Positions 41,070 through 56,759 of a stretch of 64,000 nucleotides of DNA are shown piece after piece. Every line of letters begins with the position of its first letter. Position 1 is the first letter of the stretch. Under the pieces are notes generated by a model. That model searched no databases. It was not told the origin of the DNA and worked only from the letters and a program-made list of their open reading frames with translations. The stretch is from Flavobacteriales bacterium (GTDB lineage: Bacteria > Bacteroidota > Bacteroidia > Flavobacteriales_D > Crocinitomicaceae), in NCBI GenBank assembly GCA_009885545.1, contig VFKM01000012.1, forward strand, positions 87,667-151,666, given 5' to 3'. The position numbers were made by a program, and so were the translations under genes.

Positions 41070-41091
41070 GAATATCCATAAAAAGCGTCAA

Positions 41092-41162
41092 TATAGAGAC
41101 AAAAAATTTAATAAGTTTTTTTTTGATTAATTTAAATGTAAACTTATTAGGCATTCTCTATA
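41092..41162 (-). repeat. Structured intergenic element E1
   Basis: TATAGAGA...TCTCTATA outer and ATAAGTTT...AAACTTAT inner inverted repeats; AAATGTAAACTT core. Confidence 0.6.
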
Positions 41163-41286
41163 ATTCATCGAGATATGTTTATGGAATATCCCTAATATTG
41201 CAGCTTGACATAAAAAATGTTTCCTTTTCTACAGCACCTAGTGCCGATTTCTTACTTTACCAAGATTCAACATTAATATCAACCAA

Positions 41287-41601
41287 TTATTCAACTGAAC
41301 TAATGATCTGAATACATCCGTCTTTTAACAAAGATTCCATTCTTTCGAAAGAACAATAACATAATTTATAGCTGCTAAAATCAAAAATCAAACACGGATC
41401 TTTAACTGACACTATTATCAGTAAGGCTCCTTGTGTGATAACATTATTTTTATATCCTAAATTTGAATTGGCAATTTCCATTATTATTGGAAAGCATATT
41501 ATTTTAATTAAATCTCCTTGTTTCATTTTAATCAGCTCTGATGTAGAAACTCGAATTCTATCAACTTGTTTCAGAGACAAGTCACAACATCCCGTTGCCA
41601 T
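41287..41601 (-). CDS. GDL-family protein
   Basis: MKQGDLIKIICFPI. Confidence 0.55.
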   Translation of the reverse strand: MATGCCDLSLKQVDRIRVSTSELIKMKQGDLIKIICFPIIMEIANSNLGYKNNVITQGALLIIVSVKDPCLIFDFSSYKLCYCSFERMESLLKDGCIQIISSVE

Positions 41602-41647
41602 CAGAATTATTTTTTTTGAGTAACAGTAATATTGCTACTCTTAAAAA

Positions 41648-41989
41648 TTAAAGTCCTTCACTAAATTCATAGCAACCACCTTCCATCTCATCTCTACAAA
41701 TAAATAATCTCCCAATGCCTTTTTTTGTTAAGACGGAAAAAGAACGAGAATTATAATAATAATTAGGAACATATAACTCTCTTATAACAATGAACCAATC
41801 ATTAATACTGAGATAATCAAGTGCAGAATCTACACTTAAATTTATATTGGAATAAACAGTTTTTTCTGTACCATTATAAAAAATTAAATCTCCAGACTTT
41901 ATATTTTCAAACTTCTTTACAAAATTCAGTTTTCTAAAAACACTCATAATATTTTTGATTGGTGCGTCTGGAAATACTCGCAATTTCAC
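41648..41989 (-). CDS. GDL-family protein
   Basis: IKSGDLIFYNGTEK; resembles 39165..39407. Confidence 0.55.
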   Translation of the reverse strand: MKLRVFPDAPIKNIMSVFRKLNFVKKFENIKSGDLIFYNGTEKTVYSNINLSVDSALDYLSINDWFIVIRELYVPNYYYNSRSFSVLTKKGIGRLFICRDEMEGGCYEFSEGL

Positions 41990-42036
41990 TTTTTTGGGTA
42001 AGAGCCAAATGTGCTACTTTAACACTACAAACGCAG

Positions 42037-42264
42037 TTATTCTATATATTTACCTGTCAATAAACTTTTAACATTCTTAGTCTTCTCAACTAAGCTAATC
42101 TCTGACTTATCCAATTTAATCAGTTTGTTGTTGTATTTTGATGCAATTACCTCGCAAGCAAAAATAATTAATTGAACCTGTTCATCATCCTCAATCACAT
42201 TTGTATGCATTAATCCTTTAAGGGTATTATAACATACTTCTAAATCACTTTTAGGTTGCTTCAT
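42037..42264 (-). CDS. Hypothetical protein
   Basis: 75 aa ORF. Confidence 0.4.
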   Translation of the reverse strand: MKQPKSDLEVCYNTLKGLMHTNVIEDDEQVQLIIFACEVIASKYNNKLIKLDKSEISLVEKTKNVKSLLTGKYIE

Positions 42265-42551
42265 GAATCCCTAATGTCACTTTGAAAGTCTATTCCAGCA
42301 AAAACTCTTCTCAATTTCGTTATATCATCTTCTGTCTCTAAAGTAATTTCTTTATAGGAAGAAAGATTGGTAGGGCTCTCAGATTGCTTTCTTTGATCAG
42401 AAAGACTTATTCTAAAGCTGATGAATTCTGCCAAAACAAATATTTTAGCAATCTGTTCTAAAAATGGATTTAAGTCCTCTGTTGCAAGAACCTTTAAAAG
42501 GATTTTTTCACAATTTTGTAATTCTTCTATTGTTAGTGCATTATTTTCCAT
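42261..42551 (-). CDS. Hypothetical protein
   Basis: 96 aa ORF. Confidence 0.45.
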   Translation of the reverse strand: MENNALTIEELQNCEKILLKVLATEDLNPFLEQIAKIFVLAEFISFRISLSDQRKQSESPTNLSSYKEITLETEDDITKLRRVFAGIDFQSDIRDS

Positions 42552-42722
42552 GACTTACTTTATCACCTCACAAAATTTTTCTCACCAATTTTCCACGTAA
42601 TAAGTTATTTCAAAATTCCATAAATTATTTGAAGAAGGCAGACTAATCGAAAGCCACTCCATTACTGGAGCAATCCCGCTTCGAACGGGTTCCAGAAGCC
42701 CTGTCTGGTTTACCTTCCTTAG

Positions 42723-42809
42723 CTGAGAGCAGAGATCCTGATTCCCAGACCATTTAACTGGTCCCGTCACATTTCCAGTGTGCGGTAGCCCCTGGCTACT
42801 TTACTCTCA
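42723..42809 (-). tRNA. tRNA-Ser(GGA)
   Basis: Acceptor TGAGAGT/GCTCTCA, G73; anticodon loop CTGGAAA; long variable arm GACCA..TGGTC. Confidence 0.65.
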
Positions 42810-43058
42810 AGTTTTAATCGCTTGTAAAAAAAATGACTCTACTGCTGATATCGATATCCAATCCTTAATGTAAGGGTGTATGGCAACCATATTGTGTTGA
42901 CTTGTTGCACAAGCTGAGAATATTTTCATACCATCCATTAGGTTCTTTGATTTTTTTATATAATCAGAAATATACACACACTGCTCTTCAGTTAGTTTAT
43001 TATTTTTAATAAACTCAACCAATTCTTCCTGACTTAATTTGTTTAAGACATTACTCAT
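42807..43058 (-). CDS. Hypothetical protein
   Basis: 83 aa ORF. Confidence 0.45.
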   Translation of the reverse strand: MSNVLNKLSQEELVEFIKNNKLTEEQCVYISDYIKKSKNLMDGMKIFSACATSQHNMVAIHPYIKDWISISAVESFFLQAIKT

Positions 43059-43107
43059 ATTGCTTATACTACTTTATCCATCTTGCCATTTCAAGTGATA
43101 TTTTTAG

Positions 43108-43198
43108 CAGAAGAGGCAGAGTACGATTCTACAAGACCATTTCTGGTTCAACTATTTAGCAAATAGTCTCCGTCGTCCAACATTCGGATTGCTCTTCT
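43108..43198 (-). tRNA. tRNA-Ser(GCT)
   Basis: Acceptor AGAAGAG/CTCTTCT, G73; anticodon arm ACTAT TTGCTAA ATAGT; long variable arm; T-loop ATCGTAC. Confidence 0.75.
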
Positions 43199-43230
43199 AA
43201 ATTATTCAACTATTGTACATTTCTTTAAAC

Positions 43231-43524
43231 TCAGCTTAACAAGCGCCACATCTGATGATATGTATTCACCCAACCAATTCCATTCAGAGCCAAAATATTA
43301 GCTTTATCAACAGGCTTTGTTACTATAACAAAAGCACCACCATCTGGTTCAGAAATAGCAGATTCTAATCCAAATTGTTGAAAAATCTTTATTCCAGCTC
43401 CAAATCTCTGTGCAAGATCCACAGATCTTGATTTCTGCAAATCTCTAACACGTTTTCTAATTGCACCCTTGCGTTCAGTGCGCTTTGTCCTCTTACTGAC
43501 TTCAGTTGATTTAATTTGTTTCAT
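43231..43524 (-). CDS. Hypothetical basic protein
   Basis: 97 aa ORF. Confidence 0.45.
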   Translation of the reverse strand: MKQIKSTEVSKRTKRTERKGAIRKRVRDLQKSRSVDLAQRFGAGIKIFQQFGLESAISEPDGGAFVIVTKPVDKANILALNGIGWVNTYHQMWRLLS

Positions 43525-43533
43525 AATTTAATC

Positions 43534-43875
43534 TTAGCGTTCTATTGCTTCTAGTCTTTTTCTTTCCAGGGCCAATTCCTCATTATGTTTCTTGATTAAG
43601 TGTCCGGCTGCGTTGATTACCTCGACAAGATCAGTAAATGCGGTAAAACAATGCTGTTTTCCTAGTTTACCACATTCGGAACAAGTCCTGTATAATTCTA
43701 AATTTGAAGCCACCTGCTCCTTGCCACAACAAACAAATTTATTTATCGTTTTAAACGATCTGATATCGTTTAGAACATCTCCTAAAGGAAAGTTTAAATT
43801 TTCATCGCACTTCATACAATATGAAGCTTCTAAGAAATCACAATCAAATTCTTTGCAGCATCCTGAACATTCCAT
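43534..43875 (-). CDS. Zinc-ribbon protein, paralogue of 43926..44261
   Basis: CSGCCKEF..YCMKC..FVCCGKEQ..CSECGK. Confidence 0.55.
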   Translation of the reverse strand: MECSGCCKEFDCDFLEASYCMKCDENLNFPLGDVLNDIRSFKTINKFVCCGKEQVASNLELYRTCSECGKLGKQHCFTAFTDLVEVINAAGHLIKKHNEELALERKRLEAIER

Positions 43876-43925
43876 GAATAGATCATATCATGGATATGAA
43901 TCAAATACAACAAATTTGGTATCCA

Positions 43926-44261
43926 TTATTTTATTTCCGTAGAAGCTAATTCTAAATCATGATCTTCCCACCATTTCTTGGCTTCATGAAGAATATCCCA
44001 AGTATCAGTCGTCATAAGAATATGCTTTTTATTGCTTTTTTTTGAACAGAAAGAACATTTATCATAAAAAGTCATATTAGAAGAATATTGCTCTTTATCA
44101 CAACAAACAAAGGATCTAACCTTTCTGAAATCTTCAAACTCTTCCAAAACTTTATCGTGATAATATGATTTTTTATCTTGACAATTATAACAGATTATAT
44201 AATCACTTATATCTTCAGTTAAAAAAATTTGACAACAATCAGAGCAATTAAATTGTTCCAT
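43926..44261 (-). CDS. Zinc-ribbon protein, paralogue of 43534..43875
   Basis: CSDCCQIF..ICYNC..FVCCDKEQ..CSFCSK. Confidence 0.55.
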   Translation of the reverse strand: MEQFNCSDCCQIFLTEDISDYIICYNCQDKKSYYHDKVLEEFEDFRKVRSFVCCDKEQYSSNMTFYDKCSFCSKKSNKKHILMTTDTWDILHEAKKWWEDHDLELASTEIK

Positions 44262-44262
44262 G

Positions 44263-44454
44263 CTAAGAAACTTTCTCCCAGTGATAGCCAGAATCGAATC
44301 CTTCTAATCCACAAGGCAATATCCAATATTTATAAAGATTATAATCTTTATAAATGCATAAAGCTAATTGTCCATATTGAACTGGCACGAAACCACACGT
44401 CCCAGTATAGGTATTTCTAACTAAATCACCAGGTTTAAATTTAGGTTTCGGCAT
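44263..44454 (-). CDS. Small GDL-family protein
   Basis: FKPGDLVRNTYTGTCGFV..WEKVS. Confidence 0.65.
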   Translation of the reverse strand: MPKPKFKPGDLVRNTYTGTCGFVPVQYGQLALCIYKDYNLYKYWILPCGLEGFDSGYHWEKVS

Positions 44455-44685
44455 TTAGAATTCTCTTATTGCCAACATCTTATCTTCACCCTCAACTGGT
44501 GATACAGATAATTTTCCTTTTCTTGGAATCCATTTACCTACCTCAGAATAGTAATCTTCTATTAGAAGATATCTACCACCCTCTGCAAATTCTATCGCAA
44601 CGATTTTTGTAACAGCATCCCTGTGCGCAACAATAATATCTCCTACTTCAACTTCATCTCTTTTTAACATTAAAACTTTATTCAT
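44455..44685 (-). CDS. Small GDL-family protein
   Basis: VEVGDIIVAHRDAVTKIVAIE. Confidence 0.6.
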   Translation of the reverse strand: MNKVLMLKRDEVEVGDIIVAHRDAVTKIVAIEFAEGGRYLLIEDYYSEVGKWIPRKGKLSVSPVEGEDKMLAIREF

Positions 44686-44697
44686 TTTTAATTTCTT

Positions 44698-44886
44698 TCA
44701 ACTTACAAATTTCCAATTACCAATTGATCCTATTACAATTATTTTTTGTTTTAACAAATAAACTTTTACCCATTGAATCTTTTCATAAGATTTAAATACT
44801 AATCCGAAATCACCCTTTGATAATCCGTATATCGTATGGAAAACACCGCCAGATGATAAACTTTCAACTAAATCTCCAGGCTTCAT
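44698..44886 (-). CDS. Small GDL-family protein
   Basis: MKPGDLVESLSSGG..GLVFKS..WKFVS. Confidence 0.65.
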   Translation of the reverse strand: MKPGDLVESLSSGGVFHTIYGLSKGDFGLVFKSYEKIQWVKVYLLKQKIIVIGSIGNWKFVS

Positions 44887-44934
44887 AATATGATTTTAAA
44901 TCATAACACTTAGCCCATCAAGCAACAAGGATTA

Positions 44935-45318
44935 TTATTGTTGACAGCTACCAGAAAAATATCCAAGATATGTTTGTTCTTGTGTATTAACATATACATA
45001 AAATCCATAACTTATATTAATATTATGAATCAAAGTTAATCCACCATTGGCTGCTACTGATAAAAATCTTATTGTACTTTCTCCGTATGGTCCACGCCAA
45101 ACTTGTCTTATAAGAACTGAATAAGGATTTCTATTCCTGATGTATCCGTCTTCTTCTGATAGATCATTGAAATCTAATGCACAGTTATGGAGTGTTAAAC
45201 CTATATCTGTTTCTACAATTCTTGTAGGATCTATATTTGACGGAAGAGTCTTATATACTTGTTCTTGTTGGTAACAAGCAACAAGACACAATAATAAAAC
45301 TAATAACCGACATTTCAT
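44935..45318 (-). CDS. Predicted lipoprotein
   Basis: MKCRLLVLLLCLVACYQQ lipobox; track start 45390 lies in a tRNA. Confidence 0.55.
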   Translation of the reverse strand: MKCRLLVLLLCLVACYQQEQVYKTLPSNIDPTRIVETDIGLTLHNCALDFNDLSEEDGYIRNRNPYSVLIRQVWRGPYGESTIRFLSVAANGGLTLIHNINISYGFYVYVNTQEQTYLGYFSGSCQQ

Positions 45319-45326
45319 AAACTTAG

Positions 45327-45394
45327 ATCGGATGCAGTTACTCGAAAACTGGTAGAATGGGTCAAAGCCATTTTTGGCACCTTGCCTCACCCGA
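45327..45394 (-). tRNA. tRNA-Gln(TTG)
   Basis: Acceptor TCGGGTG/CATCCGA; anticodon arm AATGG CTTTGAC CCATT; T-arm CAGTT TTCGAGT AACTG. Confidence 0.7.
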
Positions 45395-45498
45395 ACAAAC
45401 TAACATTACTTAACTATTGCTAATGACAGTCCAACAACAAGTACACTCTGTAATAAGAGAATTGGTTTTAAATAAAAAGAAAAGTAACATTTTTATCA

Positions 45499-45612
45499 TG
45501 TTTATATTTTAATTACTAACCCTAAATCACCTATATTAATATCAAAATCATTGGGATCAGTATAAGTCCTAAATGATAAATTTTTAATCAAATCTCCAAC
45601 TTCAAATTCCAT
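45499..45612 (-). CDS. Short GDL-family member (37 aa)
   Basis: MEFEVGDLIKNLSFRTYTDPNDFDINIGDLGLVIKI. Confidence 0.4.
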
Positions 45613-45613
45613 T

Positions 45614-45805
45614 TCAACTTACTTTCTGTAATATATTTCCATAAAGCCAATATTCTATTTGTTTTTTAAATATGTAAACTTTAACATATCCATGCGTGTA
45701 GATTGAACCAAGTTCAGTAACCAGACAAAGTTCTCCTTGTTTTATGAAAGAACTATCTTCTGTTGCTTTTAATAAGTCACCTACTTTAAACTCAAATGTT
45801 AACAT
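45614..45805 (-). CDS. Small GDL-family protein
   Basis: FKVGDLLKATEDSSF..LQKVS. Confidence 0.65.
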   Translation of the reverse strand: MLTFEFKVGDLLKATEDSSFIKQGELCLVTELGSIYTHGYVKVYIFKKQIEYWLYGNILQKVS

Positions 45806-45821
45806 AAAAATTTACTTATTT

Positions 45822-45892
45822 TGGTACATGCAGTCAAAATCGAATTGACAAAGTATCTTTGTAAGAGATACGCCTAACCTTTAGTTGCATGC
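45822..45892 (-). tRNA. tRNA-Val(TAC), CCA encoded
   Basis: Acceptor GCATGCA/TGCATGT+ACCA; loop CTTACAA; T-arm GTCAA TTCGATT TTGAC. Confidence 0.7.
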
Positions 45893-45996
45893 AAATTATT
45901 TCTTGATAAAATAATAAAAAATTAAATTACCAATCAAAAAACCAACTATTCCGCAAAAACATATCATAAAAAGTTGAATCATTAATATTTCCTTAG

Positions 45997-46071
45997 AGGG
46001 ACCATTCAGATTCGAACTGAACTCATGTGAATCACAATCACACGGCTTAAACCATCTAGCCTATAGTCCCT
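45997..46071 (-). tRNA. tRNA-His(GTG)
   Basis: Acceptor GGGACTA/TGGTCCC; anticodon arm TGTGA TTGTGAT TCACA; T-arm TTCAG TTCGAAT CTGAA. Confidence 0.75.
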
Positions 46072-46203
46072 TTGCGCGGTTTATGGATCTATGATCTCCT
46101 AAAAAACAAATTCAGGAGATACCGCAAACCATTTCTTTCACTGGACGCCTTCCTGTCTATCACCTTGGTTGATTGCGCAATTAGGGGCCATTCCAGTAAA
46201 TCT

Positions 46204-46374
46204 TTATAAGAGATAATTTTTATTATTTAGACTTTCAAACTCTTCTAAATCTAAAGATCTATAATGTTCGTCATCTTCACTATCGTAAATATTAGTTTGA
46301 CACTCGTAACATACAGTATCTGTTTCGCTATATGATTTTATAATTTCTTTATCACAAACATTACAAATTCTCAT
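46204..46374 (-). CDS. Zinc-ribbon-like microprotein, 56 aa
   Basis: MRICNVCDKEIIKSYSETDTVCYECQTNIYDSEDDEHYRSLDLEEFESLNNKNYLL. Confidence 0.5.
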   Translation of the reverse strand: MRICNVCDKEIIKSYSETDTVCYECQTNIYDSEDDEHYRSLDLEEFESLNNKNYLL

Positions 46375-46380
46375 TATATT

Positions 46381-46836
46381 TTACAACCACTGTTCTACAG
46401 AATCAGTTTCTTCAATATCAGAAAACGTAAAATAAACACTAAAGTCTTTTACAAACTCTTCTAAAGATTCTTTGTTAATTGAGACAGCAGTTGGTTCCAA
46501 TTCTCCAACATTACTATATTGAGAACTATTAAAACAAACTACAGCAAACTCAGTTCCAGTTTTCTTCCAAAATCCATCTTTATATAAGCGTTTTTTATTA
46601 CCAAAACGAGACTCATCTTCAATAAATTCCCAACCATCTTGTGGTAAAAGAAATAATTTTCTTTGCTCTTCACCAGAAGAGCAAACTTGCTCCTTATTAT
46701 CTTCTGTTTCTATTTCATCATAACAATCTGAAATATATTTACCAGAGTCAAATATTTTATTCACTACTAATGAGTTTCTTATTTCGAAAACGCTGCATAC
46801 AAAGGGAACTACATCACTTATACAACCATGGCTCAT
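46381..46836 (-). CDS. Hypothetical protein
   Basis: 151 aa ORF. Confidence 0.5.
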   Translation of the reverse strand: MSHGCISDVVPFVCSVFEIRNSLVVNKIFDSGKYISDCYDEIETEDNKEQVCSSGEEQRKLFLLPQDGWEFIEDESRFGNKKRLYKDGFWKKTGTEFAVVCFNSSQYSNVGELEPTAVSINKESLEEFVKDFSVYFTFSDIEETDSVEQWL

Positions 46837-46875
46837 GAACCAAACATAGCAAAATCAAGTATCAATGACAAGCGG

Positions 46876-47121
46876 TTATATCAGTTTCATACCAACAAAT
46901 GTTCCTACTAAGGCACCCATAAGATAAATTGCCATATTAAACTTATCATTTGATGTGACGACTTCTTTTAATGCAACAAGATACAATATAGTGTAAATTC
47001 CATCTAGGAATACAGCACGCATTACTGCTCTATCTTGAACCGCTGCAACATCCATATAAAATATTATATGACTTACTAGTGGTGCAAAAAATAAAAGCAA
47101 GTAACGCTTATTCGTTGTCAT
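46876..47121 (-). CDS. Small membrane protein
   Basis: 81 aa, TM-like. Confidence 0.45.
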   Translation of the reverse strand: MTTNKRYLLLFFAPLVSHIIFYMDVAAVQDRAVMRAVFLDGIYTILYLVALKEVVTSNDKFNMAIYLMGALVGTFVGMKLI

Positions 47122-47279
47122 TTTTTGTATGTAACTGGAACTGGTCTTGCATCAAACAAATTCTCTTTTGTTGGAGAGCTTATTTTTGTGCATCCACAAA
47201 GCAAAACTTGATGGTTGCTTCCATCAGAATATGCAGTAGAACCACAAACTGAACATTTAAAATAATGTTGATATGACAT
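47118..47279 (-). CDS. Zinc-ribbon-like microprotein, 53 aa
   Basis: MSYQHYFKCSVCGSTAYSDGSNHQVLLCGCTKISSPTKENLFDARPVPVTYKK. Confidence 0.5.
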   Translation of the reverse strand: MSYQHYFKCSVCGSTAYSDGSNHQVLLCGCTKISSPTKENLFDARPVPVTYKK

Positions 47280-47280
47280 T

Positions 47281-47463
47281 TTATTTTTTTACCGTATTCC
47301 TATCATTTTCTTCTATTAATTTGTTTACATAATCCCATAGATGCTGAAATCTCTCATTGTCAATCTCTGATCTTTTACAGTTATCATTGAAATGATATTT
47401 CTTATTAATTTCTACAATTTGATCATAATAAGGTTTAAGCTTTTTAAAAAATTCTTCTGTCAA
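47281..47463 (-). CDS. Hypothetical protein, related to N-terminus of 47885..48169
   Basis: FKKLKPYYDQIVEINKKYHF vs LEKKIRPFLDEVCILNKKYRW. Confidence 0.45.
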   Translation of the reverse strand: MTEEFFKKLKPYYDQIVEINKKYHFNDNCKRSEIDNERFQHLWDYVNKLIEENDRNTVKK

Positions 47464-47488
47464 TCTATCTTATTCTTTCTTGTCTTTG

Positions 47489-47549
47489 TGGGTCCGCAAG
47501 GAATTAAACCAAGTCTTCTTAAAGCGTGCTATCATTACACTACAGACCC
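47489..47549 (-). tRNA. Truncated tRNA-like gene, about 60 nt, no full anticodon arm
   Basis: Acceptor GGGTCTG/CGGACCC and D-arm GTGTAATGATAGCAC intact; middle too short. Confidence 0.45.
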
Positions 47550-47884
47550 TGACATAAGGTTTTTATTTTATGTTAGAAACCCTAAGAAACTAACATTTAG
47601 TATATATCCTTCGCGGAGCCGGTTTTGGATCTTGGAAATCAACCAAAACAGATTACTACATCTCCAAGTTGAATTTGATTTTGAATGTCTCAAATTCAGA
47701 ATTGTAATCTTTACACAAGCGCATCCTTTACAGGATTCCGTCAAACATGCATTCCTATTAGGTTCAACATGTTTTTGGGTGATGGCTATCAACTAAACTT
47801 TGATGCTCCTCCTTCGATTTTCACGAAGACTGTAACAACATTTAGTGTTGCCGCCTCTAAATATTGGGCTACAGGAACTTAACT

Positions 47885-48169
47885 TTATCCTCCAATTGCT
47901 ATTGGAGCTAATTTACATTTTTTAATATTTGGACAAATACCATCAAATATGGATGATCTTCTTTCAGAGCCGCATTCAGGACAAGGAGAAAGTGGATGAG
48001 CTTTATCATATTCTAGATCAAGATTTCTCATTGCTTGCCATAAAAAATTAGATCTTTCTCTATCTTCTGATGAAAAAACTGTAGACAAAGGCCATCTATA
48101 TTTCTTATTAAGAATACAAACTTCATCAAGAAATGGTCGAATCTTTTTTTCTAATTCATCTTTTGTCAT
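47885..48169 (-). CDS. Zinc-ribbon hypothetical protein
   Basis: CPECGSERRSSIFDGICPNIKKC. Confidence 0.5.
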   Translation of the reverse strand: MTKDELEKKIRPFLDEVCILNKKYRWPLSTVFSSEDRERSNFLWQAMRNLDLEYDKAHPLSPCPECGSERRSSIFDGICPNIKKCKLAPIAIGG

Positions 48170-48185
48170 AATATTGTTAACTTGG

Positions 48186-48248
48186 TCAGAACAAGTAGTT
48201 GAATCGTTTTGTTTTAAAAGGATGTAAACAATTCTAGCATTTCTGATG
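48186..48248 (-). repeat. Structured element E2, exact copy of E3
   Basis: 63-nt exact direct repeat with 52180..52242; outer stem TCAGAA/TTCTGA. Confidence 0.9.
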
Positions 48249-48316
48249 GTAGCCGATCTAGAATTTGAATCTAGAAGAACCGATAATCGGTCGGTTATGT
48301 TACCATTACATCAATC
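48247..48316 (-). tRNA. tRNA-Ile(GAT)-like, CCA encoded, C33
   Basis: Acceptor GGCCGAT/ATCGGCT+ACCA; anticodon arm ACCGA CCGATTA TCGGT; T-arm CTAGA TTCAAAT TCTAG. Confidence 0.6.
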
Positions 48317-48329
48317 GGCCATATGTATT

Positions 48330-48713
48330 TTATTTCGTTAAATCCGATTCTAATTTTTTCTTTAGATCTTCAAACATCTTTAAATCCTTGTCTCTTTGAG
48401 AGAGTTTCTTTTTTTCTCTTACTTCCTTCATTTTTTTAATATGAACTAGCTTCTTGACTTCTTCCTTCTCCTGTAATACTTTGGCATTTGAAAGAATAGT
48501 TATGACTGTTTCTTCTTGAGGAGAAGATGGCTGATAAATAATCAACATTCTCTCATATGCATCAAAACCAATATCTTTTGTACATCTAATTTGTTGTAGA
48601 GTACGGATTTCTTCCTCAGTTACTTCTGCCCAATCAGTAATAGATTTCGCAATAAATTCAGAACCATAATCATCATATATCGTATTACCAAAAACAATAG
48701 CTACTTTTGTCAT
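48330..48713 (-). CDS. Hypothetical protein
   Basis: 127 aa ORF. Confidence 0.5.
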   Translation of the reverse strand: MTKVAIVFGNTIYDDYGSEFIAKSITDWAEVTEEEIRTLQQIRCTKDIGFDAYERMLIIYQPSSPQEETVITILSNAKVLQEKEEVKKLVHIKKMKEVREKKKLSQRDKDLKMFEDLKKKLESDLTK

Positions 48714-48759
48714 GATCTGATCATACCTTATTCAAGTCTTGATTGCAACTGATTTCTGG

Positions 48760-48866
48760 AGCCCTAGATCCGAGTCGAACGGATGACATCCTTATTTATC
48801 ATTAGGCGCTCTTCCACGATCTTACTCGATTGGCCACTCTTTGTGATCTCACTGAGCTACTAGGGC
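48760..48866 (-). tRNA. tRNA-like gene with about 34-nt insertion in the D-loop
   Basis: Acceptor GCCCTAG/CTAGGGC, T-arm ATCCG TTCGACT CGGAT, D-stem GCTC/GAGC separated by about 42 nt. Confidence 0.6.
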
Positions 48867-49021
48867 AAATATTAATCCTCTGTTCAGAGTACTACAAATT
48901 AACTTATTGAAGTTAAATGTACAAAACACAACTTTACTGTAACCTGCCTTGACTTTTCAGGCGTAGAAGATTAATATAGTCTAGTCTGGGATAAGAGAAT
49001 CGAACCGAACTGCAAACTTAG

Positions 49022-49094
49022 TCAGATGTGCAAGAATCGCACTTGCCTCCTCCGGTATCCAAAACCGGCGTGTCGCTAATGGCACCCACATCTG
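49022..49094 (-). tRNA. tRNA-Pro(TGG)
   Basis: Acceptor CAGATGT/ACATCTG; anticodon arm CCGGT TTTGGAT ACCGG; T-arm GCAAG TGCGATT CTTGC. Confidence 0.75.
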
Positions 49095-49123
49095 TTGTAG
49101 AATCTTTTTTTCAGTAATCTTTG

Positions 49124-49193
49124 TCGGGTGTAATAGTGTCGCACTATTTCTCAAAACCAAACAAAGGTTTTGCGGATACTACCTCCACACCTG
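49124..49193 (-). tRNA. tRNA-Thr(TGT)
   Basis: Anticodon arm AAACC TTTGTTT GGTTT; T-arm AATAG TGCGACA CTATT; acceptor one mismatch. Confidence 0.6.
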
Positions 49194-49322
49194 TAAAATA
49201 TCATTGTTCACAATAATCATATTTTTGTGAATAATCCACTTTAAAAGAGTTGGTTCTTCCCGTAAACTCTTTCTCTATGGGAAGAAAGACTTCCACATAC
49301 AGGGCATTCCTTTATAAATGTT

Positions 49323-49484
49323 TTATACCAATGCTTCTTTTGTGTTCTTGATATATTCTTCATAGTTTATCCATTTATTGTACAGGCTTCCACATTTGGA
49401 ACAAACACATTCCCCTGTAGTCCATTCAGATTTACTTAATTCAAATTCATAAAAACATTCACAACATTTAAATTTGGGATTCAT
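49323..49484 (-). CDS. Zinc-ribbon microprotein, 53 aa
   Basis: MNPKFKCCECFYEFELSKSEWTTGECVCSKCGSLYNKWINYEEYIKNTKEALV. Confidence 0.5.
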   Translation of the reverse strand: MNPKFKCCECFYEFELSKSEWTTGECVCSKCGSLYNKWINYEEYIKNTKEALV

Positions 49485-49499
49485 TCTTGTTTCTTTTGG

Positions 49500-49588
49500 T
49501 CCGATGTCCTGGTGCTGCCCCAGGCTCTAGACGGTAATCGACCGTAACCCGTTATAAGCGGGCTCGAGGCGCTGGCCTCCCACATCGG
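49500..49588 (-). tRNA. Class-II tRNA-like gene, anticodon-position TAT
   Basis: Acceptor CCGATGT/ACATCGG; GAGG/CCTC; GCCCG CTTATAA CGGGT; variable arm ACGGT/ACCGT; T-arm CCTGG GGCAGCA CCAGG. Confidence 0.55.
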
Positions 49589-49645
49589 AACTCTTCATGA
49601 CCACAACATAACAGAACCAGATCAGTAAAACAAGTGATAATTTAA

Positions 49646-50704
49646 GTGCCTCCATACATCCTATTCGAAAAATGTGATACTATTAACAAAACTATGACAA
49701 CTTATATCAAATGCGTATGCTCACAGTGCTCAATTACTTTTGAACGACATAGAAAACAATTTTATAAACTTAAAAGAACAAGTAATGTCTTCTGTAATAA
49801 AAAATGTTCATCTTTATTTCGTGCAAATTCAAAAATTTATCAATGCTCTCAATGTGGACAAAATACAAAACCCATAGTGCCATCACAGATTAGTGAAACA
49901 GGAAATGTCTTCTGCAATCATTCGTGTTCGGCAACATATCATAACACACATAAAACTAAAGGTTATAGACGTTCTAAATTAGAAATTTGGCTCGAAGAAG
50001 AATTGCGTCAAAAATATACTGTTTTAGATCTTTATTGTAATAAAATTGATTCTATCAATGCAGAACTTGATATACATTTCCCAAAACTAAGAATTGCTTT
50101 TGAACTTAATGGGATATTCCATTATAAACCAATCTATGGTCATAAAAAATTGTTACAAACACAAACCACCGATAATAAAAAATTACAACTTTGCTTAAAT
50201 AATAATATAGAATTACATATTTTAGATGTTTCTAAAATCAAGCATTTAACCCAACAAATAAAAAACAATTATTTAAATCTTATTTCTACAATGGTAGATA
50301 ATAAAATCACAACATATACAGATCTTGGGTTTGATATTAAATCATTAGATCCAATGAGAGGAAGAACCAATCCTCCTCCTCCAAAAAAAGAAAAACAAAT
50401 AACTTATCAAACTTCCAAACATCTTGAAACAGCTATGCTCTGGCAATCCCAAATAGATAATGAAAATATTACCCAAGCAGATATTGCTAGAAGGGAAGGA
50501 TTTTCAAGAGTTTATGTTATGAGAATCCTTAGATTGCAATACCTTCCAGAAGATATTAAAGATACTCTTCTTAAGAGAACTTGTGGTCAAGTTAACTTGG
50601 GTCGGATGCTTGATCTAGCATATGAATATAAACAAAAGGCTACTCCATCTGATAGTAACGATCTATCCTTGACACAAGTTAACAGCTTGCCGCGATCACC
50701 ATGA
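49646..50704 (+). CDS. Zinc-finger homing endonuclease of Vsr/EDxHD-like fold with C-terminal HTH
   Basis: CxxC fingers; SKLEIWLEEELRQKY..AELDIHFPKLRIAFELNGIFHY..KKLQLCLNNNIELHIL; ITQADIARREGFSRVYVMRIL. Confidence 0.7.
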   Translation: MPPYILFEKCDTINKTMTTYIKCVCSQCSITFERHRKQFYKLKRTSNVFCNKKCSSLFRANSKIYQCSQCGQNTKPIVPSQISETGNVFCNHSCSATYHNTHKTKGYRRSKLEIWLEEELRQKYTVLDLYCNKIDSINAELDIHFPKLRIAFELNGIFHYKPIYGHKKLLQTQTTDNKKLQLCLNNNIELHILDVSKIKHLTQQIKNNYLNLISTMVDNKITTYTDLGFDIKSLDPMRGRTNPPPPKKEKQITYQTSKHLETAMLWQSQIDNENITQADIARREGFSRVYVMRILRLQYLPEDIKDTLLKRTCGQVNLGRMLDLAYEYKQKATPSDSNDLSLTQVNSLPRSP

Positions 50705-50717
50705 TTGCTAAGATGGA
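50643..50717 (-). tRNA. tRNA-Asn(GTT), antisense overlap with endonuclease 3' end
   Basis: Acceptor TCCATCT/AGATGGA, G73; anticodon arm GCAAG CTGTTAA CTTGT; T-arm GATAG ATCGTTA CTATC. Confidence 0.7.
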
Positions 50718-50729
50718 AAAGAAACGTGA

Positions 50730-50803
50730 AGCGGGATACCAGCCACGATCTGGTAACTTCTGTGTGGAGCACAGTGGTTTTGCCAATTAAAAACTAATCC
50801 CGC
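50730..50803 (-). tRNA. tRNA-Gly(TCC), T73
   Basis: Acceptor GCGGGAT/ATCCCGC; D-arm GTTT/AAAC; anticodon region CTGTG CTCCA CACAG; T-arm ACCAG ATCGTGG CTGGT. Confidence 0.65.
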
Positions 50804-50857
50804 AAAAAAAGGGGTCCGCAAACCCCATCAGAACAAAAACAAATACAGTTTTTGTGG

Positions 50858-50928
50858 TGCCTCTAGAGATGTACGAGATCTCAATCAACAGTTTCTAAGA
50901 CTGTTCGCTCTCTTTGGCGTATAGAGGC
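50858..50928 (-). tRNA. tRNA with TAG anticodon (Leu box), short variable loop
   Basis: Acceptor GCCTCTA/TAGAGGC; ACAGT CTTAGAA ACTGT; T-arm GAGAT CTCGTAC ATCTC. Confidence 0.7.
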
Positions 50929-51259
50929 TTGTTCCCATCATTGACCTAGATGAGAGAAGATGATCCTAACTGCAACTGAAAGGATTATCAAGGGAATTAT
51001 CGCTGAGTCCATTTCCTGCATAGGGAGATAGATTCCAATTATCGCAACTTTCTGGTCTTTTTTTAAGAAACATACTAGCGCACCGGCTATTCAGCCGCAC
51101 CAGTTATTATAAGCTGTACTGGCACATTCCTTTTTATAAAACTTGTTTAAGGCACAAGAAGGTGTAAAAGGACACCTAGACCATAAATTGCAATCAGCGA
51201 CAGTCATCTGACGTTTGTTGGTCGCACAACAACAACTCTTTTGGAGGGAGTCATCGCGG

Positions 51260-51329
51260 CAGGATAGAAGATAATCGAAATCTTACAAAAAAGTTTTGGA
51301 GACTTTTCGGCAACCCTGTGCGCTATCCT
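51260..51329 (-). tRNA. tRNA-Trp(CCA), G73
   Basis: Acceptor AGGATAG/CTATCCT; AAAGT CTCCAAA ACTTT; T-arm AAGAT TTCGATT ATCTT. Confidence 0.75.
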
Positions 51330-51759
51330 ACAACAGAATTTCTCACATTCTGTTTTTAATCTTCTTACTTATCGATTTTCAGAAGATCATTGTTGGTTTG
51401 TTTTAAATAGAAAACCAACAAAATAATAATGGTAATTTAAAGTCAGCCATCACTGCTATATGTTGTTTTAACGAGGAACATACAAAGCTCGGAGTCCTTA
51501 TTAATTTCTATACCTCTAAAACTCTCTAGGATGCTTTTAAATAAATAGAAACATATTAAATGGTCAAGGGAACTAGTCGCGAATTAGTATCTTCTAGGCA
51601 CCAGCCTAGTGCTTTACTTTAAGCTATCCCTCATTAGACAGAAATCGAACCTGTGTCTTGATCTTTCAGATCATATTCTGCCGTTTTTCCAATTCTGTTG
51701 GTACCGACATTCCATCGCTGAACGATTTGGAAAACACTCTGAACTACACAATTCCATGA

Positions 51760-51826
51760 TTGCAAAAAACAGAATCGAACTGTTACTGCCCCAAAGTCTC
51801 GGAGCATTCTGACCTTCAGTTTTGCG
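51760..51826 (-). tRNA. tRNA-like gene with 8-nt anticodon loop, identity unclear
   Basis: Acceptor CGCAAAA/TTTTGCA; T-arm AACAG TTCGATT CTGTT; TGCTCC GAGACTTT GGGGCA. Confidence 0.45.
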
Positions 51827-52017
51827 ATTATCTCAACAATATTGAATTAAAGTCTTTTGAAGATGACTAATCTTCAATCAACCTTGGTTCTTCAAGAACT
51901 ACAACCAATAATTTAGTCAAAATCTAATTGTAGTTTTTTCTCCAAGATATCTTAGTCTCAACAAAATTTAAAAAGATGTTTACGTGTGCTGCTTCTACAC
52001 TAGACAGGAATAAACAA

Positions 52018-52087
52018 TTCCTGCCCCTGGTACCGCCCCAGGTCCACGATCACTTAATGATGTAATCCTTCAATGCATTTGAGACAA
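52018..52087 (-). tRNA. Degenerate tRNA-like gene, TAA anticodon (Leu box)
   Basis: Loop ATTAAGT; T-arm CCTGG GGCGGTA CCAGG; weak acceptor. Confidence 0.4.
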
Positions 52088-52090
52088 TTG

Positions 52091-52163
52091 GAGCGAGAGG
52101 AGGATTTGAACCTACCATCCTATAGGTTATGAGCCTACCGTGCAACCTTAACACTTTCTCGCG
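52091..52163 (-). tRNA. tRNA-Met/Ile2(CAT)
   Basis: GTAGG CTCATAA CCTAT; T-loop TTCAAAT; D-arm GTGTTAAGGTTGCAC. Confidence 0.7.
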
Positions 52164-52179
52164 ATACAGACAGTTTTAA

Positions 52180-52242
52180 TCAGAACAAGTAGTTGAATCG
52201 TTTTGTTTTAAAAGGATGTAAACAATTCTAGCATTTCTGATG
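52180..52242 (-). repeat. Structured element E3, exact copy of E2
   Basis: 63-nt identity with 48186..48248. Confidence 0.9.
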
Positions 52243-52244
52243 TT

Positions 52245-52319
52245 TGGTGGAAAAGGAGGAACTTGAATCCTCAATTAACGGGTGCAAACCGTTTGTTATC
52301 CCAATTTAACTACAATCCC
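52245..52319 (-). tRNA. tRNA-Ala(TGC), CCA encoded
   Basis: AACGG TTTGCAC CCGTT; T-arm GAGGA TTCAAGT TCCTC; G3:U70 in acceptor GGGATTG/CTTTTCC. Confidence 0.7.
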
Positions 52320-52390
52320 ATTAATCCATTTTAAGTTTGGATAAACAATTTTAAGAAAGAAACTTTTTGACAACTCAAATAGAGTCTGAG

Positions 52391-52463
52391 TACCCATGAC
52401 AAGATTTGAACTTGCATACAAAAGATTTTGAATCTTTTCGCGATCCAGTTTGCGTACATGGGC
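52391..52463 (-). tRNA. tRNA with CAA anticodon (Leu box), short variable loop
   Basis: Acceptor GCCCATG/CATGGGT; AAAGA TTCAAAA TCTTT; T-arm GCAAG TTCAAAT CTTGT. Confidence 0.7.
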
Positions 52464-52465
52464 TA

Positions 52466-52529
52466 AAGAACAGACAAGAAATTTAACAAGTTTTGCGTTA
52501 AATGTAAACTTGTCAGGTATTCTGTTCTT
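52466..52529 (-). repeat. Structured element E4
   Basis: AAGAACAG/CTGTTCTT outer and ACAAGTTT/AAACTTGT inner stems; AAATGTAAACTT core. Confidence 0.7.
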
Positions 52530-52531
52530 GG

Positions 52532-52598
52532 TGGGTTCTCTTGGACTTAAACCAAGGACTTCCATTTTCATGGCACTCTTTCGCTGAGTTAAGAACCC
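52532..52598 (-). tRNA. tRNA-like gene with shortened anticodon arm
   Basis: Acceptor GGGTTCT/AGAACCC, D-arm ACTC/GAGT, T-arm CTTGG TTTAAGT CCAAG; anticodon arm only CCAT GAAA ATGG. Confidence 0.55.
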
Positions 52599-52687
52599 TG
52601 ATTAAATATCAATTCAGGTTGCGATCCTAAAATATGTGTTATGTACTTCCGCAGAGCTAGCAGGGATATTGTTATGATATTTAATAG

Positions 52688-52759
52688 TGCTTCATGTTGG
52701 TACCGCGCCAACCTTTTTTGCTCTTCAGGCAAATGCTAATCTATCTCAGCTAATGAAGC
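52688..52759 (-). tRNA. tRNA-Phe(GAA)
   Basis: Acceptor GCTTCAT/ATGAAGC; TTTGC CTGAAGA GCAAA; T-arm GTTGG CGCGGTA CCAAC. Confidence 0.7.
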
Positions 52760-52769
52760 TAAAAAAACA

Positions 52770-52840
52770 TGGAACTTGATGGACTTGAACCACCGACCTC
52801 CTACAACCAAGTAAGTGCTCTTTCGCTGAGCTAAAATTCC
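52770..52840 (-). tRNA. tRNA-Thr(GGT)-like with 6-nt anticodon loop
   Basis: Acceptor GGAATTT/AAGTTCC; D-arm GCTC AGCGAAA GAGC; CTTAC TTGGTT GTAGG; T-loop TTCAAGT. Confidence 0.6.
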
Positions 52841-52845
52841 ACTGG

Positions 52846-52911
52846 CTCGATAGGAAATAATCGAAATTTCAGAAATGTTTATAAGGCATTTCGCCACCTT
52901 GGCTCTACCGG
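52846..52911 (-). tRNA. tRNA-like gene, anticodon-position TAT
   Basis: Acceptor CCGGTAG/CTATCGA; loop (C)CTTATAA(A); T-arm GAAAT TTCGATT ATTTC. Confidence 0.5.
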
Positions 52912-53104
52912 ATGCGAATCAGAACTTATCATCATTCTGATTCAGTGTCAAGTATTTAAGCGACCTCAACAAACGCTGATATAGCAGACCTATACCTATC
53001 AAGTGATTTTATTTTTACGAGTGATAACCACGATAACTTATCTCGGATTCTAAAATCCTCAAAACAAAAGAGAAAGGAGGCGAAGATATTGTTTTGAGGA
53101 TTGG

Positions 53105-53175
53105 CGGGCCTACGGAGTTACGCTCTCCGGTTACCAAAGTGACAATCTGGTGTCCTGCTATTGAACGATAAGCCC
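53105..53175 (-). tRNA. tRNA-Asp(GTC), G73
   Basis: Acceptor GGGCTTA/TAGGCCC; CCAGA TTGTCAC TTTGG; T-arm CGGAG AGCGTAA CTCCG. Confidence 0.75.
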
Positions 53176-53325
53176 TTAACGTAAATTTATATTGTTCCTG
53201 CGCCTTAAATTTACAAATTTGGAATCGCAACTAGTTCTACTAGAAATCAAGACTGGTTTTTTGAAAAGAGTAAAACGATGTTCGTTAAACTTATAAAATC
53301 GGTAGTCTTTCACGCTGATTTAATC

Positions 53326-53402
53326 TGGTGACCCCATCCAGGTATGATCTGGAACTCACAACGGGTGAAAACCGTGTATTTTGCCAATTAAACTATGGAG
53401 CC
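53326..53402 (-). tRNA. tRNA-Glu(TTC), CCA encoded
   Basis: Acceptor GGCTCCA/TGGGGTC+ACCA; loop TTTTCAC; T-arm TCCAG ATCATAC CTGGA. Confidence 0.75.
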
Positions 53403-53480
53403 AAAAGGATCTTAAAAATATAAGATCCGGTGCGCTCCTACTAGGACAACGAAAGCATCCGTTCAGATCACAATTAAGAC

Positions 53481-53543
53481 AGAGACAAATGATTTGACAA
53501 GTTGTGATTGTATTTGGAAATGTAAACTTATCTAGTATTCTCT
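53481..53543 (-). repeat. Structured element E5
   Basis: AGAGA..TCTCT ends; ACAAGTT / AACTTaT; AAATGTAAACTT core. Confidence 0.55.
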
Positions 53544-53548
53544 ATCGG

Positions 53549-53631
53549 TGCGGGTGTAAGTAATCGAAACTTATTGGCTTTTAGACCCAGGCATTTACAG
53601 TGCCCTATCCCACCATGGGAAACTCACCCGC
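53549..53631 (-). tRNA. tRNA-Tyr(GTA), class II
   Basis: Acceptor GCGGGTG/CACCCGC; CTGTAAA loop; long variable arm; T-arm TAAGT TTCGATT ACTTA. Confidence 0.8.
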
Positions 53632-53716
53632 ATATTAGCTCCATTCATCATGGAGCCTGAAACCTTATTGTCAAAGACCTTAACATGATCTCATTAAAAT
53701 GAGATTAGTCAAGTAG

Positions 53717-53787
53717 AGGAAGTAATTTGTAACGATCAAATAACAAAGGAATTTTGCAGATTCCTTGCACAACCTTGTGATACTTCC
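53717..53787 (-). tRNA. tRNA-Cys(GCA), U73
   Basis: Acceptor GGAAGTA/TACTTCC; GGAAT CTGCAAA ATTCC; T-arm ATTTG ATCGTTA CAAAT. Confidence 0.7.
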
Positions 53788-53847
53788 TTTTTCAGAGAAC
53801 CAACTCTATCAAACTCCTGAATCAATAACAAGTACTTTTTTTCTTGG

Positions 53848-53920
53848 AGCCCGCAGTCAAAATTGAATTGACATCTTCTGAGTACAAAACAGAAATAATA
53901 AGCCTTTATACTATACGGGC
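53848..53920 (-). tRNA. tRNA-like gene, probable TGT anticodon, 9-nt apical loop
   Basis: Acceptor GCCCGTA/TGCGGGC; TTCTG TTTTGTACT CAGAA; T-arm GTCAA TTCAATT TTGAC. Confidence 0.5.
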
Positions 53921-55184: not shown

Positions 55185-56759
55185 CTACTCACTGTCTGAC
55201 GACATTAATTTAATATTATTAATTTTCTCCAACCAAGCATTTGGTTCATTATTTAAGAATGAACCGATTACTTCAAAAACTGAATCATTACCGAATCCGC
55301 CTACGTTCAATACATCCTTTTGTGTATTTGTTTGAGTTGTGACTCCTGCTGCTAGATCCACAAGAACAAGTTTTGCTTTTCGATTGCGTTTTTTGAATGC
55401 AGCCCATTCGTTAGCTAATCCTGTTCCTTGAACAAAGTAACGACCATTTGCCCAGCTTTCATTATCTGACAAAATAATGACAGATTCGCCAATTGCTTTT
55501 TGTTGGTTTAAAACCATTAACATTGCTGAACAATCGGTTCCTCCACCATTCGCCCCAATTCGATTTGTATTAGTCATGACAGTGTCACGAGGATTTAATG
55601 TTAGTTTTTCTGCTCTCGTATCAAATCTATAAACATCACAATCCTTTGATGATCTCAGGAAGGATGCAGCCATTAGGGCAGCTACTTCATTACAAGAAAC
55701 CTTACTGGTTGCTGTTCCTCTATTTCCTGTAACCGATGCTGTCATAGAAGCAGAACAATCTACACCAATAAAGGTTTTTCCTTTTAGTTCTGGAACATTC
55801 TCTGTTGCAACCTCCATAGCATCTTGCAATGCATTTTTAATTGGCATTGGAAGAGAATCATCAGTATTCTTATATGCCGTAAATAATTGATATGGAAATA
55901 CTTTTACCTTTTTAATAGTATCTCTATCTGAGAGTCTCTTCGCAATCATATTCACCATGTTTGGATTTTTTAAGACATCATGGCGCATGAATGTATTAAG
56001 ATTCATTCTTGTCATATGCCAAGGAGCAGTTTTTGCAATTTCTGTCCATTCCTCGGAAGATAGATCAAGAGCAGTCAACATTTGGAAAGGAACATTTGGG
56101 ACTTTTCTTGTTCCTTTTGATGCCTTTTTGAATGTTTCAAATTCTTGAACCACTTGTGGCAACTTTTCAAAAGCCACTTCTCTTCCAAGAAGATAAGCGT
56201 AAAAAGCTTCTCTTGCCTGTGTTGGTGGTTTTGGATGGACCATTTTAATAACATCAACCAAAGTTGGATCATTTCCAACTGAATCCTCAAGAAGTTGGGT
56301 ATCTGTTCTGTAGTTAAGAAAACTTTGGATCATTTTCTTTGCAGAAGATCCAAATGATTTTTTCCCTGTAACACCTGAACGGACTGCTTGGCAGAAATTC
56401 CTTAAAGTTTTTCCATTTCTTACAACCCTTGGGAAAACTGCCTTAAAGAGTTTGTTATCTCTTCCCATGAGAGTTGCCAGAAGCAACGCAGAAGAATCCT
56501 TCATAAAGGCAAATTCAAAAGAATAAATAGTCAACTTTGCATGAAACAAAGGACTAACTTCTTGTACAAGACGCAATACATCCTCTAAAGTTTCTTCTCC
56601 AGAAGAATAATAAGTTCCATTAAAGGTTCCTGTGCAAGCTAGTTGAGCAAGAGCCTTCTCGGAGGAAAGTTTGTAAGCTACTCCACCAGCTTTATTAGAG
56701 GTATTGGTTGACTTTACTAAATGCTTTGAGGACAATGATTTGAAAATATCTTTATTCAT
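55185..56759 (-). CDS. rsr: TROVE-vWA (Ro60/Rsr-like) RNA-binding protein
   Basis: NKAGGVAYKLSSEKALAQLACTGTFNGTYY; MKDSSALLLATLMG; HPKPPTQAREA; MIDAS VDCSASMT; GGGTDC; SDNESWAN. Confidence 0.88.
   Translation of the reverse strand: MNKDIFKSLSSKHLVKSTNTSNKAGGVAYKLSSEKALAQLACTGTFNGTYYSSGEETLEDVLRLVQEVSPLFHAKLTIYSFEFAFMKDSSALLLATLMGRDNKLFKAVFPRVVRNGKTLRNFCQAVRSGVTGKKSFGSSAKKMIQSFLNYRTDTQLLEDSVGNDPTLVDVIKMVHPKPPTQAREAFYAYLLGREVAFEKLPQVVQEFETFKKASKGTRKVPNVPFQMLTALDLSSEEWTEIAKTAPWHMTRMNLNTFMRHDVLKNPNMVNMIAKRLSDRDTIKKVKVFPYQLFTAYKNTDDSLPMPIKNALQDAMEVATENVPELKGKTFIGVDCSASMTASVTGNRGTATSKVSCNEVAALMAASFLRSSKDCDVYRFDTRAEKLTLNPRDTVMTNTNRIGANGGGTDCSAMLMVLNQQKAIGESVIILSDNESWANGRYFVQGTGLANEWAAFKKRNRKAKLVLVDLAAGVTTQTNTQKDVLNVGGFGNDSVFEVIGSFLNNEPNAWLEKINNIKLMSSDSE

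Follow-up and report, generated by a model that had tools for sequence, protein, structure and literature searches.

The tRNA array of the phage contig analysed here contains many units in which the elbow departs from the textbook sequence, and the departures come in matched pairs. Judged from these sequences, the altered units are very probably working phage tRNAs, whose elbows would be held together by substitute contacts, with both partners of a contact changed in concert. Gene finders, modification enzymes and structural models all depend on residues U54, U55, C56, A58, G18 and G19, which are treated as near-invariant in tRNAs. Where these residues are naturally replaced in pairs, the substitutions reveal the contacts that are truly required in the elbow, and suggest that it can be built in ways beyond those of the textbook picture.

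The window, by which we mean the whole 64,000-nt stretch of DNA that was analysed, comes from a phage contig of 158 kb that is binned in a bacterial MAG. The array occupies positions 40997–53920 of the minus strand, on which all features mentioned below are located, and contains about 35 units, with canonical and non-canonical ones mixed. A structure scanner that scores the stems and ignores the T-loop sequence identified 23 units on the array strand of the window and none on the opposite strand, while six control scans gave 0–1 units each. With a stricter threshold, the scan of 14 sources (the contig under study, related phages and phage-like genome contigs) yielded 177 tRNA-like units on the array strands, compared with 0 on the opposite strands. 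ARAGORN recovers only 11 of the approximately 35 array units, and phage tRNA counts obtained with standard tools are thus too low. In the Rfam tRNA model, 13 array units score above the gathering score, among them the altered Glu-TTC, Asp, Phe, Pro and Lys units, and the remainder fall below it.

The original prediction was that T-loops with A54 and U58 in place of U54 and A58 occur in six otherwise coherent tRNAs, as a result of covariation rather than decay. All six are present: tRNA-Ser(GCT) at 43109–43198 (T-loop ATCGTAC at 43121–43127), tRNA-Asn(GTT) at 50644–50717 (ATCGTTA at 50656–50662, D-loop ATGGT), tRNA-Gly(TCC) at 50731–50803 (ATCGTGG at 50743–50749, GG in the D-loop), tRNA-Asp(GTC) at 53106–53175 (AGCGTAA at 53118–53124), tRNA-Glu(TTC) at 53330–53402 (ATCATAC at 53342–53348, with U55, GG in the D-loop) and tRNA-Cys(GCA) at 53718–53787 (ATCGTTA at 53730–53736, D-loop AGGT). 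Each has a fully paired 5-bp T-stem and 7-bp acceptor stem, and an A/U combination where the canonical U54-A58 would be expected. The set is larger than predicted. Beyond the window, A54/U58 also occurs in Lys-TTT at two loci, and other combinations at 54/58 are seen in tRNA-Phe(GAA) at 52689–52759 (CGCGGTA, C54/G58), tRNA-Leu(TAG) at 50859–50928 (CTCGTAC, C54/U58, no GG in the D-loop), a class II tRNA with a UAU anticodon at 49501–49588 (GGCAGCA, G54/G58), tRNA-Ser(GGA) at 42724–42809 (ATCAGGA, A54/G58) and tRNA-Glu(CTC) at 40999–41069 (ATCGAAA, A54/A58). The comparison across relatives that had been suggested as a check ties A54 to U58: among the 177 units from 14 sources, U58 is present in 10 of 12 units with A54 and in 2 of 165 units without it (p = 7e-13, a value that overstates the certainty, as do those of the other covariation tests, since the units are not phylogenetically independent). 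We know of no cell that has the reversed A54/U58 pair.

The 54/58 covariation is therefore real, but two further elbow contacts, 18/55 and 19/56, also vary in a matched fashion. A second association, which the original prediction had missed and which is stronger, links residue 55 to the D-loop. With residues 18 and 19 assigned from the D-loop motif rather than from a structure, GG is present in the D-loop of 154 of 157 units with U55 and of 1 of 16 units with G55 (p = 8e-18, 14 sources, with the same overstatement; p = 7e-13 when the contig under study is left out). Nearly all of the 15 G55 units without GG have AG instead, that is, A18. In the array, this combination is seen in the Asp unit (D-loop AATAGCA, A18 G19), the Phe unit (ATAGAT, A18), the class II unit (CAGC, A18 G19), tRNA-Pro(TGG) at 49023–49094 (T-loop TGCGATT, D-loop CCATTAGCGA, A18 G19) and tRNA-Lys(CTT) at 41964–42034 (TGCGAGT, D-loop with AAAGTA, A18 G19). 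The standard set of G18 G19 with U55 C56 is absent from these five units and retained in five of the six tRNAs originally listed. G55 is also found in a compact tRNA-Thr(TGT)-like unit of uncertain acceptor register at 49125–49191 (TGCGACA) and, together with A56, in a tRNA-like unit with an uncertain anticodon at 47805–47878 (TGAAAAT, no GG in the D-loop). No G55 was found in canonical arrays scanned in the same manner (L022, L029, L034, T5 and LinStu).

At the third contact, 19/56, some units have switched from G-C to A-U or U-A. Within the array, G18 A19 is combined with U56 in a tRNA-like unit with a 12-nt anticodon arm at 52533–52598 (T-loop TTTAAGT, D-loop AGCGAAA, fold z -3.6) and in a short tRNA-like unit at 47490–47549 (TTTAATT, D-loop TAATGATA), for which the minimum free energy fold is not a cloverleaf. 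A few units do not fit the matched pattern, among them a Pro unit in L016 (TGCAAAT) and the unit at 52771–52840, where A19 faces C56.

Altered elbows recur in several phage lineages (L016, L019, L021, L031 and L040), and the swaps are shared by unrelated phages, some of them cultured. The Met-CAT tRNA of Myxococcus phage Mx1 has a TGCGATT T-loop and TTAGA in the D-loop (A18/G55), the mycobacteriophages LinStu, Pleione, Alice and Issimir have Gly-GCC and Asp-GTC tRNAs with ATCGTAA (A54/U58), the same T-loop is found in the Asp tRNA of Arthrobacter phage Talia1610, and Ile-GAT of phage T5 has A19/U56. In the host genus, tRNA-Arg has itself undergone a switch at 19/56, with GA and TTTGAAT in some species and GT and TTAGAAT in others. 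Nucleotide searches gave no match, either for the array in cultured phages or for single altered tRNAs, and viral contigs yielded no relatives when the DNA polymerase and LAGLIDADG genes were used as markers. The gene for a Ro60/TROVE RNA-binding protein that adjoins the array (55185–56759) was the marker by which relatives were found. Within the host order, Ro60 is present in only 2 of 399 genomes, one of which is the contig's own, and there is thus no near relative for a tRNA-by-tRNA comparison. As a side observation, the motif RTTTACAT is enriched in L016 and shows no enrichment in the window overall.

The elbow is the site at which contacts between the D-loop and the T-loop produce the L shape. 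In the proposed arrangement, the T-loop would be capped by a 54-58 pair that may be U-A, A-U, G-G, C-G or A-A, residue 18 would slot into the T-loop next to residue 55 as either G18 with U55 or A18 with G55, and the outer 19-56 pair could be G-C, A-U or U-A. The acceptor and T stems, the anticodon loop and the discriminator base appear normal, which would leave an altered tRNA fit for charging and for use on host ribosomes; we infer that the altered RNAs are made, folded as an L and charged. It could be argued that they are instead pseudogenes in which conserved bases have been lost at random, given that many units have lost T-loop consensus bases and that several score poorly with standard tools. 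However, the base changes come in pairs, the same altered forms persist in different phages, and pairing in the acceptor and T stems is kept to the same degree in altered and canonical units (11.76 and 11.86 of 12 positions, respectively). Furthermore, the discriminator base is the one expected for the amino acid, according to a table drawn from general knowledge, in all 16 altered units of the window, where permutation gives 8.1. The paired changes largely refute decay, which we regard as highly improbable, and the original preference for covariation is supported by the 54/58 association, the matched 18/55 switch, the stems and the discriminators. A nearest-neighbour test gave weak support for the retention of isoacceptor bodies by altered tRNAs (9 of 31 against 3.3 expected, p = 0.004). 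Some units could also be tRNA-like RNAs with no role in translation, acting for example as decoys or as Ro60 partners, since the Ro60 gene of relatives is located within the array or next to it and the anticodon arm is truncated in two window units and one Mx1 unit. This is improbable as well, because most altered units have a 7-nt anticodon loop and a matching discriminator base.

If the altered units are working tRNAs, the simplest cause of their form is compensated drift in tRNAs that need to work for one infection alone. A possible, if doubtful, cause is selection for escape from a host factor that reads the elbow, be it a defence nuclease that attacks tRNAs or an enzyme that modifies them; this concerns the cause and is compatible with a function in translation. 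The contig encodes a set of proteins for the repair and quality control of tRNAs (RNA ligase, polynucleotide kinase/phosphatase, Thg1-like polymerase and Ro60), phage tRNAs have been proposed to evade host tRNA nucleases through changes in the anticodon loop (PMC10264068), and they reportedly enable evasion of retrons (PMC11555353). However, many different amino acids are affected, a single array mixes canonical and altered units, and no elbow-specific defence was identified. The original suggestion that the purpose is to dodge TrmA at U54 and TruB at U55 is weak. U55, the TruB target, is retained in five of the six tRNAs originally listed, and in most A54/U58 units. In the host MAG (89% complete), TruB is present, the U5-methyltransferase family has one partial match, TrmFO has no match above the cut-off, and a TrmI-type m1A58 enzyme was not found; with no clear enzyme for either modification, there is perhaps little m5U54 or m1A58 to escape. 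The altered sequences necessarily remove these target sites, but escape from modification would be no more than a putative reason for the alteration. The broader idea that phages have repeatedly and independently evolved interchangeable, fully functional elbow architectures, the reversed A54/U58 pair among them, and keep these because they hide phage tRNAs from a host defence or surveillance factor that detects the normal elbow, seems unlikely to us.

The occurrence of A54/U58 in cultured mycobacteriophages and of A18/G55 in cultured Mx1 makes function, modification and nuclease sensitivity directly testable in laboratory strains. In cluster C1 mycobacteriophages, tRNAs with altered anticodon loops have been proposed to evade host tRNases (PMC10264068), and it is in the same group of mycobacteriophages that the Gly and Asp tRNAs with A54/U58 occur; in a text search of that paper, which is devoted to anticodon loops, neither the T arm nor the elbow was found to be mentioned. 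The scaffold of the compact units, with 0–1 linker nucleotides, a 4–6-nt D-loop with GG, a 6–7-bp anticodon stem (7 bp in Cys) and a 1–4-nt variable loop, resembles tRNAPyl, the synthetic ZtRNA (PMC6337575) and bovine mitochondrial tRNASer(UGA), and most compact units share the UUCRA T-loop of ZtRNA. They differ in being natural tRNAs of phages: those of the window are specific for Cys, Trp, Val and Gln (two units), alongside one unit with UAU, and those of Mx1 for Arg (three units). Most units with altered elbows do not have this compact form.

In the canonical elbow, G18 contacts Psi55, G19 pairs with C56 and U54-A58 forms a reverse-Hoogsteen pair (PMC7912444; PMC4810234). The phage units share the cloverleaf, the 7-nt T-loop and the contact positions, but swap the identities at 54/58, 18/55 and 19/56 in matched pairs. 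The eukaryotic initiator tRNA has A54-A58 (PMC7912444), as do Glu-CTC and, in relatives, Ser-CGA and Ser-GGA, but in the phages this combination is found in elongator tRNAs, alongside several other solutions. Further parallels come from the laboratory. E. coli suppressor tRNAs were reportedly selected from randomised D-loop and T-loop libraries (by Zagryadskaya in 2003 and Doyon in 2004), and in these U54-A58 is said to have been replaced by G54-G58 or G54-A58, while G55 is said to have required A18 as a "specific purine trap." To our knowledge, A54/U58 and C54/G58 were not among the solutions recovered. The sequence signature of the trap, A18 when residue 55 is G, is found in the phage units, and both A18/G55 and G54/G58 thus appear to be natural counterparts of solutions previously known just from laboratory selection.

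The phage contig (C147; 157,908 bases, binned in a 3.16-Mb MAG, with the window spanning bases 87667-151666) encodes a portal protein, rIIA and rIIB, and a DnaE-type DNA polymerase, and is a tailed phage. Its tRNA array, which occupies roughly 40997-53920 of the minus strand, adjoins a Ro60/TROVE gene; Ro60 is present in 2 of 399 genomes of the host order, one of which is the window's own. The contig, including the pieces L010 and L012, also has genes for RNA ligase (L012 875-2068), polynucleotide kinase/phosphatase (window 28486-29448), a Thg1-like protein (L010 9681-10496) and a peptide-chain release factor (window 36501-37472). The phage tRNA-His gene carries A at -1 and U at 73, instead of G and C. 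A plus-strand ORF (49646-50704) with homing-endonuclease-like matches and a ParB-type HTH lies antisense to the array and overlaps the tRNA-Asn gene.

ARAGORN identified 11 tRNAs, and Rfam with relaxed filters 13 in the array region. A loop-blind scanner, in which the acceptor, D, anticodon and T stems are scored and T-loop and D-loop sequences earn no credit, recovered 23 units on the array strand versus 0 on the other, and 0-1 unit per scan in six 15-kb controls; the total came to about 35 after a further scan aimed at compact tRNAs and hand curation. At a strict threshold, 14 sources (this contig, viral and genome contigs of Ro60-bearing relatives, and the cultured Myxococcus phage Mx1) yielded 177 units on the array strands and 0 opposite. 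The counts from these sources are pooled over related phages, which are not independent samples, and the p-values are too optimistic.

In the normal elbow, the T-loop is capped by U54-A58, residue 18 inserts beside 55, and 19-56 is the outer pair (PMC7912444, PMC4810234). The 54/58 combinations among the 177 units were U/A (157), A/U (10), G/G (3), C/U (2), A/A (2), C/A (2) and C/G (1). U58 was found in 10 of the 12 A54 units versus 2 of the 165 others (p = 7e-13 across 14 sources, related phages not being independent). This association and the intact stems support the original prediction that the 54/58 change is covariation rather than decay, and the six T-loops on which it was based are all present, each with complete T and acceptor stems.

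The 18/55 covariation had been missed. With residues 18 and 19 assigned from the D-loop motif, 154 of 157 U55 units (14 sources) have GG in the D-loop, as opposed to 1 of 16 G55 units, nearly all of which have AG in its place (examples are Asp AATAGCA, Pro CCATTAGCGA and Lys TAAAGTA; Fisher p = 8e-18, or 7e-13 without this contig, related phages not being independent). The sole exception, an Asn unit in a relative (L019; D-loop AGGAAGTT), also has AG at the right place. The pattern amounts to an exchange of G18-U55 for A18-G55. No G55 was found in the same scan of arrays L022, L029, L034, T5 and LinStu, used as internal controls. The 54/58 and 18/55 changes are separable, because five of the six tRNAs originally listed keep U55 and GG, and Asp alone has both swaps.

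A third switch concerns 19/56. Units with U55 and U56 have GA in the D-loop, namely window 52533-52598 and 47490-47549 (minus), a unit at L017 9648, and phage T5 tRNA-Ile (D-loop AGCGATCTA, T-loop TTTAAAT). In the host genus, some species have a tRNA-Arg with D-loop AACTGAATA and T-loop TTTGAAT (A19-U56), and others have one with D-loop AACTGTATA and T-loop TTAGAAT (U19-A56) (L057, L060, L067-L086), a clean case of an A-U versus U-A switch within one genus.

Altered units have on average 11.76 of 12 acceptor and T pairs, and canonical units 11.86. The discriminator base, compared with the identities generally known for each amino acid, was as expected in 16 of 16 altered contig units whose anticodon could be read (14 from the window and two tRNA-Lys from elsewhere on the contig); 100,000 shuffling trials gave a mean of 8.1 and never 16. 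The expected Glu A73 agrees with the host's own tRNA-Glu. Judged by their sequences, the altered units do not appear to be decaying, and we regard them as functional tRNAs in which the elbow is compensated.

Why the elbows changed can be explained in several ways. Compensated drift requires no added assumption. Escape from TrmA and TruB was suggested originally, but five of the six tRNAs concerned still have the TruB target U55. The host MAG contains TruB and, for m5U54 enzymes, no more than a partial match to the family and a TrmFO match below threshold; a TrmI-type enzyme was not found in this MAG, whose organism may not be the phage host, and such absences are soft, given its 89% completeness. 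A tRNA-cleaving defence may be what is being escaped, in keeping with the phage tRNA repair genes (RNA ligase, kinase/phosphatase, Thg1-like protein and Ro60), but nothing points to a nuclease that reads the elbow.

At least two of the elbow variants occur beyond this phage group (T5, LinStu). The LinStu Gly/Asp region matches 210 phage records, and T-loops were read in eight. ATCGTAA (A54/U58) is found in Gly-GCC and Asp-GTC of the mycobacteriophages LinStu, Pleione, Alice and Issimir, in Asp of Sauce, Ronan and Pinkcreek, whose Gly is another tRNA and has the canonical TTCAAAT, and in Asp of Arthrobacter phage Talia1610. Mx1 Met-CAT, unannotated in the deposited record, combines a TGCGATT T-loop with a D-loop containing TTAGA. 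Relatives have altered-elbow tRNAs of the amber-suppressor (CTA) type, at L017 9648-9721 (A19/U56) and L019 6629-6699 (A18/G55 with G54/G58).

Other architectures were also unusual. The tRNA-like units at 52533-52598 and 47490-47549 (minus), and at 712-777 of Mx1 (L066), have truncated anticodon arms, with a stem of 3-4 bp and a loop of 4 nt; 52533-52598 and the Mx1 unit fold as complete mini-cloverleafs with an encoded ACCA end. Anticodon loops of 6 nt occur at 52771-52840 (TTGGTT) and 51565-51633 (CTGGTG), both minus. Class II tRNAs with long variable arms and UAU anticodons, in three different phages (window 49501-49588, minus; L019 6895-6982; L031 5132-5218), possibly serve unusual AUA decoding. 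A tRNA-like unit at 48761-48866 (minus) carries about 33 additional D-loop bases, with GATC near both ends, which may be an insertion or intron. Two-helix hairpins are dispersed between the tRNA units (53466-53556, 52466-52540, 52177-52250, 48183-48256 and 41090-41175, minus; also L016 2908-2985 and 4870-4945). Their apical loop holds an invariant GUUUACAU, and the stem sequences vary among copies with pairing kept. They could be a phage small RNA or a Ro60 partner.

Compact tRNAs (Cys 53718-53787, UAU 52847-52911, Trp 51261-51329, Val 45826-45892, Gln 45328-45394 and Gln 41537-41605, minus; three Arg in Mx1, L066 6602-6815) have a linker of 0-1 nt, a D-loop of 4-6 nt with GG, an anticodon stem of 6-7 bp and a variable loop of 1-4 nt, an architecture that matches tRNAPyl and the synthetic ZtRNA. 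For the elbows, the comparison is with suppressor selections that Steinberg's group made in E. coli, in which G54-G58 and G54-A58 reportedly replace U54-A58, and G55 is said to require A18. Our natural data agree with both of these reported results, and A54/U58 is an addition to them.
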